From Pedobacter westerhofensis (GTDB lineage: Bacteria > Bacteroidota > Bacteroidia > Sphingobacteriales > Sphingobacteriaceae): a stretch of 64,000 bases of DNA. The translations under genes and the position numbers were made by a program. The notes under the pieces are model-generated. The model saw only the letters and a list, made by a program, of their open reading frames with translations, had not been told where the DNA came from and searched no databases. The stretch covers positions 1-64,000 of the forward strand of contig NZ_FXTN01000001.1 of assembly GCF_900182595.1 (NCBI RefSeq), in the 5' to 3' direction. This document shows, one piece after another, positions 15,274 through 23,389 of the stretch (the first letter of the stretch is position 1; the number at the start of each line of letters is the position of its first letter).

Positions 15274-17772
15274 TTAGCCCTCTACCGGAAGGCTGAACCA
15301 AAAAACCGTTCCAACACCTTCAGTACTATCCACACCGATCTCTCCCCCGTGCCGTTTGACAATGTCAGCGCAAATATATAGGCCCAGGCCCAATCCCGAA
15401 ACCTGAGCGCCCGTCTGGTCTGCCCTAAAATAGCGATCAAACAGATGTGGCAACTTATCTGGGGGGATGCCCGGCCCGGTGTCCCTTACTGAAACCTTTA
15501 CGGAACTACCAAGGTCTTCCGCTGTTAGAAAAATCTGCTTGCTATCTGGCGCATACTTCACTGCATTGGTAACGAAGTTAGAGATTACCTGCTCAATGCG
15601 GTTCTCATCTCCAAAAATTTGAAGCTCACCTATATCCTCTACAACGAGCTCATGAGATCCGAGCTGTCGCAGGTGTAAGCAACGTTCCTCGATCATATCG
15701 GCAAAACTGAATTTGCTTCTATTCAGCGTTACCTGCCCCTCTTTCATCACTGTAACCGTTAACAGGTCATCCACCAATACTGAAACCTTCTGCATACTTT
15801 TTACAGACTGCCCGATCAGCTTAGGGAACAAGGCTGTTGGATTTGACTTCATCCTTTCCAGTAGTTGCAAGGAGGCTTTTAGACTAGTTAGTGGGGTTTT
15901 CAACTCATGACTGGCAATAGAAATGAAATCGTCTTTTTGCTGCTGCAATCTTTTGAACTCAGTAATATCAATTACAGTACCCAGCAGCCTGGCCATGTTG
16001 CCATCGCTGTCATAGTACACTTTTCCATGCACCCGTACCCATCTGAGCGATCCATCTAAAGGTGCAAGACGCGCCTCATAGAAAAGCTTGCCAGTCTTTT
16101 TTGCAAGGGAGTGCGCCTGTTCACTAATGTCAGCATCCAAAGCATGGTAGGTGGCCAGCACCTGATCCCGGCTTACCGGTCTGTCAAGACCAAATATCTC
16201 GTTGAATCGCTCAGAACTTCTGAGCGACTGCTCAATATAATCAAACTCGTAAGTACCTATTTCAGCCGCTTGAATCGCTAGTCGACTGCGTTCCTCAGCA
16301 TCTTCAATCCGTTTTCGGGCAATTACTTTATCAGTCACCTCATTGATTACCACCATTATTGTCGTGATTTCTCCATTTAAGCCAATCACCGGCTCATAAA
16401 CAAAGTCGACAAATACAGTTTCTTCTACTCCCTTTCTGATCAACAGGAGTTCATGTTCCAGGGCATGGAAGGCGGTCCCTGTCGCGATCACATCCTGCAT
16501 CACAGGTGCATATACCTCCGCGGCTTCGGCCATGGCATCCCAGATGGTATGGTTTTCTATCTGCTCCCGCTGCCTTCCCACTAATTCGAGATAGCTTTTA
16601 TTTACATCCATAATCATCAGGTCTTCTGCACGGATCACACAGATGGCAACAGGTGCTTGTCTGATCAAATTACGAAACCGCGCTTCGCTCCGTACCAATT
16701 CATCATAAGACGCTGCCAGTTCTTCATTCGTTGTGGAAAGTTCTTCATTAACGGCCGCCAGTTCTTCATTAGAAGTGGCTAACTCTTCAATAAAGTCCTG
16801 CATCTTATGTTCATCCTCTTTCTTTTGAGTTATGTCAATACAAGAACTAATGTATCCCGCAAACTTACCATCCGAAAGAAACCTTGGTGTCCCTTTTTTC
16901 AGCAACCAGTGATAGGATCCTTCTGCACCCAATAACCTTAGCTCGGCTGTGTAAGACACCCTTTTTGTAAAGGCGGCACTGTGGATATCAAGAAAATTCT
17001 GTCGGTCCCGCTCGTGGATCAAATCCTGCCAGCCCACCTCAAGCAATCTCTCGGGGCTCCTTCCAGTAAGTATTGACCAGGCTTTATTAAAGTAAAATCG
17101 CTTTCCGGTTTCATCTGCTACTGTAATATGAATATCCGTGTTATCGGCCATCGACCTAAAGCGTATCTCACTTTCGGCAAACGCCTGTACCCGCTCGGCT
17201 ACCATCGATTCCAGTTCTGAGTTGATTTTTGATAGTTCTTCCCTGCTTGAAAACAGCTCCTCATTGATTGCATTGAGCTGCTCATTCGAGGCCGCCAGTT
17301 CCTCATTTAATGACTGCTCCTGCATAAGCAAGGCCTTATTTTGAGCCGCTTCTTCCAGCTCGCGCCTATTCAGATATAATTCTGTCACATCAGTAGCCGT
17401 ATGTAGGATGGCTATCACCTGACCTCTTTCATCTTTCACAGCGCGGTATTCAAAATTAAAATAGAAAGTGGACAACTCACCGTCCACCAAAATGTCTGCA
17501 GCCGTTTCAGTACCGGAAATGGTAATGCCGTCCCGCCATACCCTGGCAAACATTTCCACAAACGGCTGGCCTATGAGTTCGGGCATAGCCTGTATCAGCG
17601 TTTTGCCAATTACTTCAGTCCCCCTGCCCCAAATGGTCAGCATTGCATGATTGGCAAACTGAATCTGCGCATCTACCCCAACATGTATGGCCGTAGCTGT
17701 TTGCGTAAAGGACAATACATGATTTAATTGTTCAGCACTCAATATCTTTGTTTGATCACTTATGCCAGGCAT
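15274..17772 (-). CDS. Multi-PAS sensor histidine kinase
   Basis: 832 residues, no membrane segments, so cytosolic. About four PAS-like modules occupy residues 1-600. Between them are two repetitive coiled-coil linkers built of NEELAAxNEEL-type heptads (about residues 155-195 and 325-360), a feature of Bacteroidota PAS kinases. The kinase core follows: HisKA with IASHELKTPLTSLK (H622), N-box NFVTNAVKYA (about 732-741), G1 DTGPGIPP and G2 GLGLGLYIC, ending in a typical HATPase_c fold at 832. No receiver domain is fused and no response regulator is adjacent, so the partner is unknown. Its shorter relative with the same layout lies at 36835-38412. Confidence 0.93.
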   Translation of the reverse strand: MPGISDQTKILSAEQLNHVLSFTQTATAIHVGVDAQIQFANHAMLTIWGRGTEVIGKTLIQAMPELIGQPFVEMFARVWRDGITISGTETAADILVDGELSTFYFNFEYRAVKDERGQVIAILHTATDVTELYLNRRELEEAAQNKALLMQEQSLNEELAASNEQLNAINEELFSSREELSKINSELESMVAERVQAFAESEIRFRSMADNTDIHITVADETGKRFYFNKAWSILTGRSPERLLEVGWQDLIHERDRQNFLDIHSAAFTKRVSYTAELRLLGAEGSYHWLLKKGTPRFLSDGKFAGYISSCIDITQKKEDEHKMQDFIEELATSNEELAAVNEELSTTNEELAASYDELVRSEARFRNLIRQAPVAICVIRAEDLMIMDVNKSYLELVGRQREQIENHTIWDAMAEAAEVYAPVMQDVIATGTAFHALEHELLLIRKGVEETVFVDFVYEPVIGLNGEITTIMVVINEVTDKVIARKRIEDAEERSRLAIQAAEIGTYEFDYIEQSLRSSERFNEIFGLDRPVSRDQVLATYHALDADISEQAHSLAKKTGKLFYEARLAPLDGSLRWVRVHGKVYYDSDGNMARLLGTVIDITEFKRLQQQKDDFISIASHELKTPLTSLKASLQLLERMKSNPTALFPKLIGQSVKSMQKVSVLVDDLLTVTVMKEGQVTLNRSKFSFADMIEERCLHLRQLGSHELVVEDIGELQIFGDENRIEQVISNFVTNAVKYAPDSKQIFLTAEDLGSSVKVSVRDTGPGIPPDKLPHLFDRYFRADQTGAQVSGLGLGLYICADIVKRHGGEIGVDSTEGVGTVFWFSLPVEG

Positions 17773-20696: not shown

Positions 20697-22031
20697 TTGT
20701 TAATACAAAAAATCGATGATTTGGAAAACGCAAGACCACAGGAGTTAGCTATCCTGGTACAGGACAAACTCAAAAAAAGTAAGCGAATTACGCTAATACC
20801 CGAACTTGGGGTACTGAACAACTTATTTGAATGTTTATTTTTCACCAGTATGTGTAAGGAGGAAAGTGAATTGATTAAGGTTACCGTGACCTTCATTGAT
20901 CCAGCAAACCCCGATCCGCACCCGCCACGGCGCAGTGTCGCCGAAAGGTGGAGCTGTATCAGCTTCGATCAGCGAATACCAATGACCACTAAATCTCTGG
21001 CAAAGCTTTCAAAAGCTGCCGACCCCTCCTGCACCTCACTTGCTGTCTATTATGATGACCATGGACTTTTTATTTGGGGCATGATAGATCAGGCCATGCA
21101 ATACCAAAATTTTCTAAATTATGAATCTGAGAACGACTCTGAACAGCCAGGCTTTTTCCAGGTCTCTATTAAAGACATAGGCACACTAAACATACTATTT
21201 GATTACGAGCTCCTGGCAACGCTCAACCAAAACGTACTGGTGCAGCGGTACCTTGACGTGCTTACTATTGGCCCTGTCGCTAAAATCCTTAAACGAAATT
21301 CTGACTTTCTTAAAATAAAGATCAGAGAGTATCTATTGGAAACTTATCCAGAACAGGCTTTCCAGGAATGGGAAGATTTTTTAGATAACCTATGGATACA
21401 AACATTGTCCAGGCTTTTGCTGAAAATTCAGAATTATCAGCATGGCGGTGCCTTGCTCATTGCGGACGAAAGCGCCGACATCGATATCAAATATAAGATA
21501 CACTATCAGCGCCTCATTTTCGCGATGATTGCCTATGCCAAAGCCTCAATTGAGAACCATGTGCTGGACAGATATATAACCGCTCAAATTCATGAAGGAA
21601 AACGTAGCATTAGCAAAAGCCTATATCAGAAAGAATCAGCTGCATTGCTGCAGAAAGCAGGAATAGCAGATGAAATTACGGGAGCTATCAACTTTATCGC
21701 CTCTCAGACTTGTGTGGATGGTGTAGTGCTGTTCAATAGGGACATGGTTAGCAATGGTTTTGGAGCGGTCTTACGTGCGAAAAGAATGCCCCGCAAAATC
21801 TATGTTTCCGCAACTGCCACTGCAACAGCAAAATCACTCAGCGCGGCGGACCCTAAAGACTACGGTACCCGGCACCGCTCCATGATCGCCTACTGCTGGA
21901 ACCATCCAACCGCATTAGGCCTGGTCATCTCACAGGACGGCGAAATCAGGGCATTCTCGAAAATTGAAGACAAACTGATTATGTGGGAAAAAATCAAAAC
22001 ACAACAGTATATTAAAAACAAAAAACTGTAA
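20697..22031 (+). CDS. DACNV-like sensor plus DisA_N (diadenylate cyclase-fold) protein
   Basis: 444 residues; the start is probably TTG 20697, preceded by GGGAGAA (no good ATG until residue 52). Residues about 1-270 resemble the DACNV putative sensor region described in computational surveys of nucleotide signalling. Residues about 325-425 are a DisA_N/CdaA-type domain: the DGA-type motif is VDGVVLFNRDM (341-343 DGV) and the hallmark GTRHR is intact at 390-394, followed by LGLVISQDGEIRAF. In DisA and CdaA these two motifs bind ATP and metal to make c-di-AMP. The usual SEETG is replaced by SQDGE, so activity is not assured. The next gene, a membrane PAS protein, starts 60 bases downstream. 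Synthesis of c-di-AMP or a related nucleotide is an inference. Confidence 0.8.
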   Translation: MLIQKIDDLENARPQELAILVQDKLKKSKRITLIPELGVLNNLFECLFFTSMCKEESELIKVTVTFIDPANPDPHPPRRSVAERWSCISFDQRIPMTTKSLAKLSKAADPSCTSLAVYYDDHGLFIWGMIDQAMQYQNFLNYESENDSEQPGFFQVSIKDIGTLNILFDYELLATLNQNVLVQRYLDVLTIGPVAKILKRNSDFLKIKIREYLLETYPEQAFQEWEDFLDNLWIQTLSRLLLKIQNYQHGGALLIADESADIDIKYKIHYQRLIFAMIAYAKASIENHVLDRYITAQIHEGKRSISKSLYQKESAALLQKAGIADEITGAINFIASQTCVDGVVLFNRDMVSNGFGAVLRAKRMPRKIYVSATATATAKSLSAADPKDYGTRHRSMIAYCWNHPTALGLVISQDGEIRAFSKIEDKLIMWEKIKTQQYIKNKKL

Positions 22032-22090
22032 TTTTTCGTTTTCATATCTAATTAAATTCTTTTGGCTTTGACTCCCTAATTAAGTACCAT

Positions 22091-23389
22091 TTGTCACAAC
22101 AAGCGCCTCAAACCAGTAAATTATTGCAGCCTTGGAAACTTTACAGGCAGTATGTGATGCACAGAATTCTGGGCAAGGAACATGAAATAAAAGTTCAGCA
22201 TCTTGATTTGTGGAAGGATAAACTATTTGCAAATTCCGTAGTGTACGCAATGCCTGTAAGCCTTTTTGCATTGATCCCTAGTTTCATCATTGCCTATTAT
22301 AGTGAACATGATTTACTCTGCGTTTGCAACGCTGGTGCCTTTACTGCACTTGTGATTATAGCGTTGAGTAAAAGGATTAAACTGGCAATACGAAAACTGA
22401 TTATTGTTGTGATATTGACATTGATCGCCATTATCCTGATCGCTTACCTGGGCAGTTTTGGCATCGGCAGCGTGTATCTCATGGTGATTGGGGTATTCAT
22501 AGCCTTTATCTTTTCTCCTCGTGTAGCCTATATGGCATTTGCACTAAATGTCCTGATATATATTACTTTTGGCTTAATCATCTTTTTTAAATGGTTCAAT
22601 TCACCTCTCATCGGGCAATATCCTATTAACTACTGGATTGCTTATTCTCTTAATTTCCTATTTCTAAACTACATTGTTATTACTCAGATCAGTCATATAC
22701 TAGCCGGACTTGAGCAAACAATATACAAAGAATACAGGCTCATGGAAATTTTGCGTCGAGATTTGAAAGAGAAGGAGCAAAACAATAATCTGCTAAAACA
22801 ATCGGAAGCTCATTACAAAACATTATTCTTTTCTAATCCGACTCCCATGTGGATTTTTGACCGCGATACAATGCGGTTTCTGCAGGTGAATGATGCTGCC
22901 CTTGAAAAATATGGCTATACCAAGGACGAGTTTTTAAGTATGACCATTCCCGACATACGTGAAAGCGGGAGCATTGAAGATCTCTCAAGAACCATAGCAG
23001 AAGTAGAACGTTCCCAAACATTTGTAGAGAATATTGCAAAACATCGGGGAAAGGATGGACACCCATTCTATGCAGAGGTTAGATGCGGAATTATACCTTT
23101 TAATGGCAAAACGGCATTTCTAGCCATTGCAAGAAATATTACCAGACAGATTGAATATACCGGGGCTATCGAACAGCAAAATGAAAAACTCCGTAAAATA
23201 GCTTTTATGCAATCTCACGTGATCAGGGCACCCTTGTCCAGAATTTTAGGTTTAACTGATCTTATGTTACAAGATAAACAAGGAGATCAGGAACTACTGA
23301 ACTTTCTGGATATATCTGTTAAGGAACTGGATGTGGTCATTCAAAGTATCGTGAACGACACTGGTGAAATCTTGCCTCCGCGGGTTTAG
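22091..23389 (+). CDS. Membrane PAS protein ending in a histidine-kinase dimerisation box, without ATPase domain
   Basis: 432 residues from TTG 22091; ATG 22157 is an alternative start. About six hydrophobic segments lie between residues 50 and 205 (for example VSLFALIPSFIIAYY and IIVVILTLIAIILIAYLG). A short coiled linker is followed by a PAS domain (about 235-355; NPTPMWIFDRDTMRF, LAIARNITRQIE). The C-terminus is a HisKA-like helix pair with QSHVIRAPLSRILGL, where the histidine is kept but the TPL is changed to APL. The protein stops there; no HATPase_c N, G1 or G2 box follows. It could act as a sensor that uses another kinase, or signal through the preceding cyclase-like protein. Lesion-free, so the short form looks natural. 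Confidence 0.85.
   Translation: MSQQAPQTSKLLQPWKLYRQYVMHRILGKEHEIKVQHLDLWKDKLFANSVVYAMPVSLFALIPSFIIAYYSEHDLLCVCNAGAFTALVIIALSKRIKLAIRKLIIVVILTLIAIILIAYLGSFGIGSVYLMVIGVFIAFIFSPRVAYMAFALNVLIYITFGLIIFFKWFNSPLIGQYPINYWIAYSLNFLFLNYIVITQISHILAGLEQTIYKEYRLMEILRRDLKEKEQNNNLLKQSEAHYKTLFFSNPTPMWIFDRDTMRFLQVNDAALEKYGYTKDEFLSMTIPDIRESGSIEDLSRTIAEVERSQTFVENIAKHRGKDGHPFYAEVRCGIIPFNGKTAFLAIARNITRQIEYTGAIEQQNEKLRKIAFMQSHVIRAPLSRILGLTDLMLQDKQGDQELLNFLDISVKELDVVIQSIVNDTGEILPPRV

Follow-up and report, generated by a model that had tools for sequence, protein, structure and literature searches.

The window analysed here comprises positions 1 to 64,000 of contig NZ_FXTN01000001.1 of Pedobacter westerhofensis (assembly GCF_900182595.1), read on the forward strand. 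Our subject is two of its genes, which lie on the + strand and are separated by 59 bases. The first (20697..22031) encodes a DACNV protein of the long type with a predicted diadenylate cyclase (DAC) region; it has 444 residues if read from the TTG codon at 20697 and 436 if read from the likelier TTG at 20721. The latter is probably the true start, because the database copy of the protein (P0001) has 436 residues and most relatives in an alignment of 30 sequences (A1) start nearby. The second (22091..23389) encodes a membrane sensor of 432 residues, in which a MASE11 and a PAS domain are followed by a dimerisation and histidine phosphotransfer (DHp) stretch, and which has no ATPase domain. A preliminary description had seen the two as a signalling pair. 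Studies of cyclic di-AMP (c-di-AMP) are, so far as we know, mostly concerned with the CdaA and DisA enzymes found in Gram-positive bacteria.

The N-terminal part of the first protein is a DACNV domain (PF21751, "Probable sensor domain DACNV"; 20793..21086, residues 33-130), which passes the curated Pfam cut-off with 62.3 bits versus 27 (expectation value, E, 5.1e-17). Its C-terminal half (21258..21995, residues 188-433) is clearly predicted to adopt the DAC fold. In the model of P0001, a monomer, residues 181-420 (189-428 in the 444-residue numbering, which is used for the motifs below) form a block with a predicted local distance difference test (pLDDT) score of 79-93, and the 40 listed structural alignments to CdaA and DisA run at 12-19% identity. 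Within the fold there are two long helices (21507..21710, residues 271-338; 264-291 and 299-329 in P0001), a stretch longer than in CdaA. They are followed by DGV at the position of the DGA motif (21717..21725, residues 341-343), by GTRHR (21864..21878, residues 390-394) and by SQDG (21930..21941). DG, GTRH and SQDG are all invariant in A1; SQDG is also invariant in an alignment that combines the long DACNV type with a second one of about 380 residues. The first protein thus has the predicted DAC fold, GTRHR and the DG of DGA in common with DisA and CdaA (PF02457). It differs from them in DGV for DGA, in the longer helical segment, in a DAC score below the cut-off, and in its N-terminal DACNV domain, where CdaA has a membrane region; DisA carries a C-terminal HhH domain.

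In the second protein, MASE11 (22211..22711, residues 41-207; Pfam E 7.6e-22) and PAS_9 (22841..23143, residues 251-351; Pfam E 1.8e-10) precede a HisKA/DHp stretch (23213..23359, residues 375-423), which scores 20.4 bits, below the Pfam cut-off of 26.9. The histidine box reads MQSHVIRAPL, with the phospho-acceptor H376 at 23216-23218, and the protein stops 56 residues past this histidine. HATPase_c is not among the Pfam families listed for it, nor does the list of HATPase matches in its own genome contain one at this locus. H376, R379, P381 and L382 are invariant in an alignment of 18 sequences (A4). Judged by the alignments, the conserved features of both proteins are not due to chance. The preliminary description was right about most of this: both reading frames, DGV and GTRHR, the DACNV sensor region, and a kinase-like membrane PAS protein that lacks an ATPase domain. 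Its DAC domain stood in part: the predicted structure clearly has the DAC fold with the key motifs, but the DAC family model stays below its curated cut-off, so that the description came close to one of its own refuting conditions.

HATPase is absent from the precomputed Pfam domains of the 50 best listed relatives of the second protein (P0121-P0170, the query included). Copies of the second protein, 26 in all, were found in 21 of 301 genomes by a search confined to close half kinases (matches at E ≤ 1e-70); 25 of them match the box motif and stop 51-83 residues past the histidine, and one does not contain the motif as written. Other MASE11-PAS-HisKA proteins of Pedobacter and Mucilaginibacter have the same domains, a like length and the same stop after the DHp helices, and where the source names them they are mostly called "PAS domain S-box protein". 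A scan of the own genome gave 100 HisKA matches (E ≤ 0.01), of which 12, the second protein included, have no HATPase on the same strand within 900 bases; the 100 do not contain two paralogues of the second protein that are DHp-only as well. Lack of the ATPase half is therefore the usual state in this family. It is a family trait common in the own genome and no sign of pairing with the cyclase, and the second protein belongs to a DHp-only group that is widespread. Among the ATPase-less HisKA proteins of this genome, those inspected stop no more than about 70 residues from a box of the kind QSHxxRxP; those scanned are PAS or GAF proteins.

Two copies of the second protein (L178, L184) are followed by a small protein, which presumably starts like a receiver domain. 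The copy of the own genome in L092 is followed by a kinase with ATPase, as the HATPase list confirms, and then by another protein; we take the kinase to be of the GAF type and the other protein to be receiver-like. The second protein would not phosphorylate itself. It would take the phosphate from, or dimerise with, a complete kinase encoded elsewhere, and the phosphate would then pass to a response regulator. As a lead only, Spo0B is likewise a DHp-like histidine carrier and not a full kinase; it is soluble and keeps a remnant of an ATPase-like domain, whereas the second protein has membrane and PAS domains and no such remnant. Spo0B is mentioned as a phosphotransfer protein in PMC11210211. 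Among the papers searched, MASE11 occurred only in ones on other subjects.

The supposed pair does not recur. Relatives of the first gene were collected as 29 loci fetched by similarity and as an enlarged set of 85 loci, of which 54 were left after 31 near-copies (97% identity) had been dropped. Open reading frames were called crudely, the longest first, with at least 80 residues for the 29 and at least 90 for the enlarged set, so that the lists of neighbours may have gaps. With a threshold of E ≤ 1e-10, a relative of the second gene stands beside the long-type gene at 1 of the 54 loci, which is the window itself; the flanks retrieved for the remaining 53 contain none. Nor do the flanks of the 29 relatives, mostly 7 kb on each side, contain one; the only match there covers 95 residues of PAS sequence in L051 (E 6e-4). 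Seen from the other side, the second protein is the sole one of the 26 copies that adjoins a DACNV gene, with no first-gene relative within about 1.5 kb on each side of the other 25. Seven genomes besides the window's have both families, and in each of these the two lie on separate contigs or no closer than 870 kb to each other. As far as these neighbourhoods tell, the pairing is therefore peculiar to the present strain, perhaps with its nearest relatives. The signalling pair thus found no support as a unit, and the cooperation of the two proteins is an idea that comparison does not support.

A looser association of sensors and cyclase genes survives. By Pfam, full histidine kinases account for 13 of the 58 genes in first position beside long-type genes versus 3 of the 108 in positions 3-4 (the neighbour list leaves out the pieces of a broken cyclase gene in L070). 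With a profile of our own, built from the kinases of these same loci, they make up 17 of 107 immediate neighbours versus 10 of 296 at positions 2-4 (Fisher p 4e-5, the loci being related by descent); for the 29 named loci this profile yields the same number as Pfam, 13 genes. Nine or ten families are represented among the kinases, most of which carry PAS or GAF domains (8 of the 9 scanned). Clustering split them into 11 groups; these include the kinase near the broken gene in L070 and a pair of groups that are 75% identical to each other and of unequal length. A family of about 550 residues (51-60% identical) adjoins the long-type gene in three genomes of two genera and in varying orientation; its scanned member is the one that has neither PAS nor GAF. 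On a tree that left out one short row, at least 6 changes are needed to explain which genes have a kinase neighbour. Such recurrent placement would point to common conditions under which both cyclase and kinases become active, or to related stress that they sense. The window has its own full histidine kinase of 832 residues (15274-17772, - strand), four genes away from the cyclase gene. It is of the same broad type as the cyclase-adjoining kinases of other strains, yet only 33-34% identical to them.

The genome contains further proteins related to c-di-AMP. One strong DAC protein was found (C3:49133, E 1.5e-39), beside a gene that we take to be folP, and a 7TM-HD protein of the PgpH kind is present. 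In addition, a DACNV protein of 380 residues is encoded at about 384.5-385.7 kb of C5 (L043:8519-9661). Likely, therefore, the own genome has three proteins of the DAC fold: CdaA, the 380-residue DACNV protein with GTRHL, and the accessory long type with GTRHR. In a sample of the genus, where the two types were separated by score and frame length, the near-universal 380-residue type was found in 34 of the 36 genomes and the long one in 9. In a sample of the family, relatives of the long type (E ≤ 1e-40) were seen in 52 of 399 genomes, from 2 of 25 genera; a sample of the phylum had DACNV in 11 of 395 genomes, which belong to 4 of 170 genera. "DACNV-containing protein" is also the name in NCBI and UniRef; the listed ones of 457 database relatives share the N-terminal domain with the first protein and resemble it in length and C-terminal region, and two of them are called "diadenylate cyclase" by their source. 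The first protein is a clear member of this family, of the accessory long type, with no feature that sets it apart. Both proteins are types already named in databases, the first as a computationally named family.

In our opinion it is reasonably probable that the DACNV protein with its predicted DAC fold makes c-di-AMP, and that the adjoining half kinase, being of a common type, serves other kinases and is not a dedicated partner. The first gene is then likely to encode an accessory, sensor-controlled c-di-AMP synthase, as its motifs and the model indicate. A good deal weighs against this. The match to PF02457 is weak (12.9 bits versus a cut-off of 27, E 0.084, residues 384-421), for which reason the first protein is counted as sharing the predicted fold and not as a member of PF02457. 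The profile comparison with the own CdaA, in which the GTRHR region was what aligned, gave a probability of 3%; no cyclase was found when PDB sequences were searched with a profile of the first protein; and Foldseek alone, used with the long-type model, returned no match at E ≤ 0.001 and no cyclase among the top 50 listed. Across long-type proteins the third position of DGA is V, L or I, with DG kept, in A1 and in tallies of text patterns over 120 listed proteins per type. The 380-residue type, for which these tallies took the proteins nearest to the paralogue (77-96% identical), has GTRHL in all 120; in the genus, GTRHL or GTRHF is found in 31 of 31 sequences, with F in 12 (the own copy counted twice). 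DGA is intact in the paralogue. Because the last arginine of GTRHR is lost, at least this branch may have changed its function. We know of no enzyme activity of any DACNV protein and of no test of either type. As to the neighbours, 39 of the 54 long-type loci have no adjacent kinase, a distant subgroup (37-43% identity) has one at only 1 of 13 loci, and the kinase neighbourhood is clustered phylogenetically (0 of 500 shuffles as low).

Some of these observations could also mean that the DAC-fold region does not synthesise c-di-AMP at all. It might bind c-di-AMP or ATP and act as a receptor or regulator, e.g., of CdaA. The sub-threshold DAC score, the change of DGA to DGV, DGL or DGI, the L or F at the last arginine in the 380-residue type and a canonical CdaA already present in the genome would fit. 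We nevertheless hold this to be rather unlikely, since GTRHR is present in 114 of the 120 listed long-type proteins and since in DacA of Mycobacterium tuberculosis RHR was shown to be the essential motif and the glycine of DGA to be dispensable (PMC3328451). A cyclase that makes another nucleotide, or that uses substrates besides ATP alone, is a highly improbable alternative. Its basis is the strong divergence from CdaA and DisA already seen in the structural alignments, together with the longer helical segment inside the fold. Against it, the protein largely keeps the DGA and RHR positions, on which ligand binding by known diadenylate cyclases is reported to depend (PMC8573169).

Of course, the second protein could still be a dedicated partner, whose membrane and PAS domains sense a signal and which switches the cyclase by direct contact through the DHp helices, so that an ATPase domain would be unneeded. 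The same strand, the gap of 59 bases and the lack of a terminator-like site in between speak for it. So does Pedobacter agri (L050:5509-6864), whose cyclase gene is directly followed on its strand, after 158 bases, by the gene of another kinase-less sensor, a GAF-PAS-PAS protein. DAC enzymes, moreover, depend on dimer geometry (PMC8573169), and a dimerising DHp protein could influence this geometry. The neighbourhood surveys from both sides, with the window as their only instance, make it quite unlikely. Further, Pedobacter sp. BAL39, which has the closest relative of the first protein (83% identical) and is also nearest to it in the tree (84% over 438 columns), has quite different neighbours, and the genome taken as BAL39 (G610) carries its copy of the second-protein family on another contig. 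There is also a bolder version: Pedobacter and Mucilaginibacter would repeatedly set the long-type protein, as a portable c-di-AMP output module, beside different PAS or GAF sensors, and the kinase-less DHp protein of the window would switch the cyclase by contact, in a two-component-like route that needs no phosphorylation. We consider this very unlikely.

If the first protein is the accessory synthase that we favour, its DACNV region may bind a cytosolic signal. This would bring two DAC domains face to face, each with one ATP, to yield c-di-AMP and two pyrophosphates. The result would be a conditional pool of c-di-AMP on top of the canonical one made by CdaA, and a PgpH-like enzyme could remove it. 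Should the long type indeed make c-di-AMP, a Bacteroidota cell gains a second, sensor-controlled source, and the recurring kinase neighbours would be a first clue to when the cell draws on it. A second and wider question, on two-component signalling in this phylum, is posed by the DHp-only proteins. The points that deserve attention are the pattern of kinase neighbours and the split between GTRHR and GTRHL or GTRHF in the two DACNV types. A literature search, which covered few subscription papers, found no paper on DACNV or DACND, and for c-di-AMP together with Pedobacter it turned up only bacterial STING.

Some minor observations on the surroundings of DACNV genes may be added. The gene of the 380-residue paralogue overlaps by 11 bases in the own genome with a gene that we take to be that of the rRNA methyltransferase RlmF, and lies about 22 bases behind such a gene at five other loci. 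Pedobacter fastidiosus (L070:6968-8340) has an interrupted long-type cyclase gene, and so has G672 (L137), which is probably the same strain. At two distant loci (L058:5678-6925; L040:9679-11301) a Na+/H+ exchanger gene is found directly upstream of the DACNV gene on the same strand, a placement that would fit a control of ion balance by c-di-AMP. At three further loci (L056, L060, L066) the cyclase gene is followed downstream by a gene for an HD-PycTM protein and then by one that is presumably polyphosphate kinase-like; HD-PycTM proteins are widespread in the genus regardless of the long-type cyclase.
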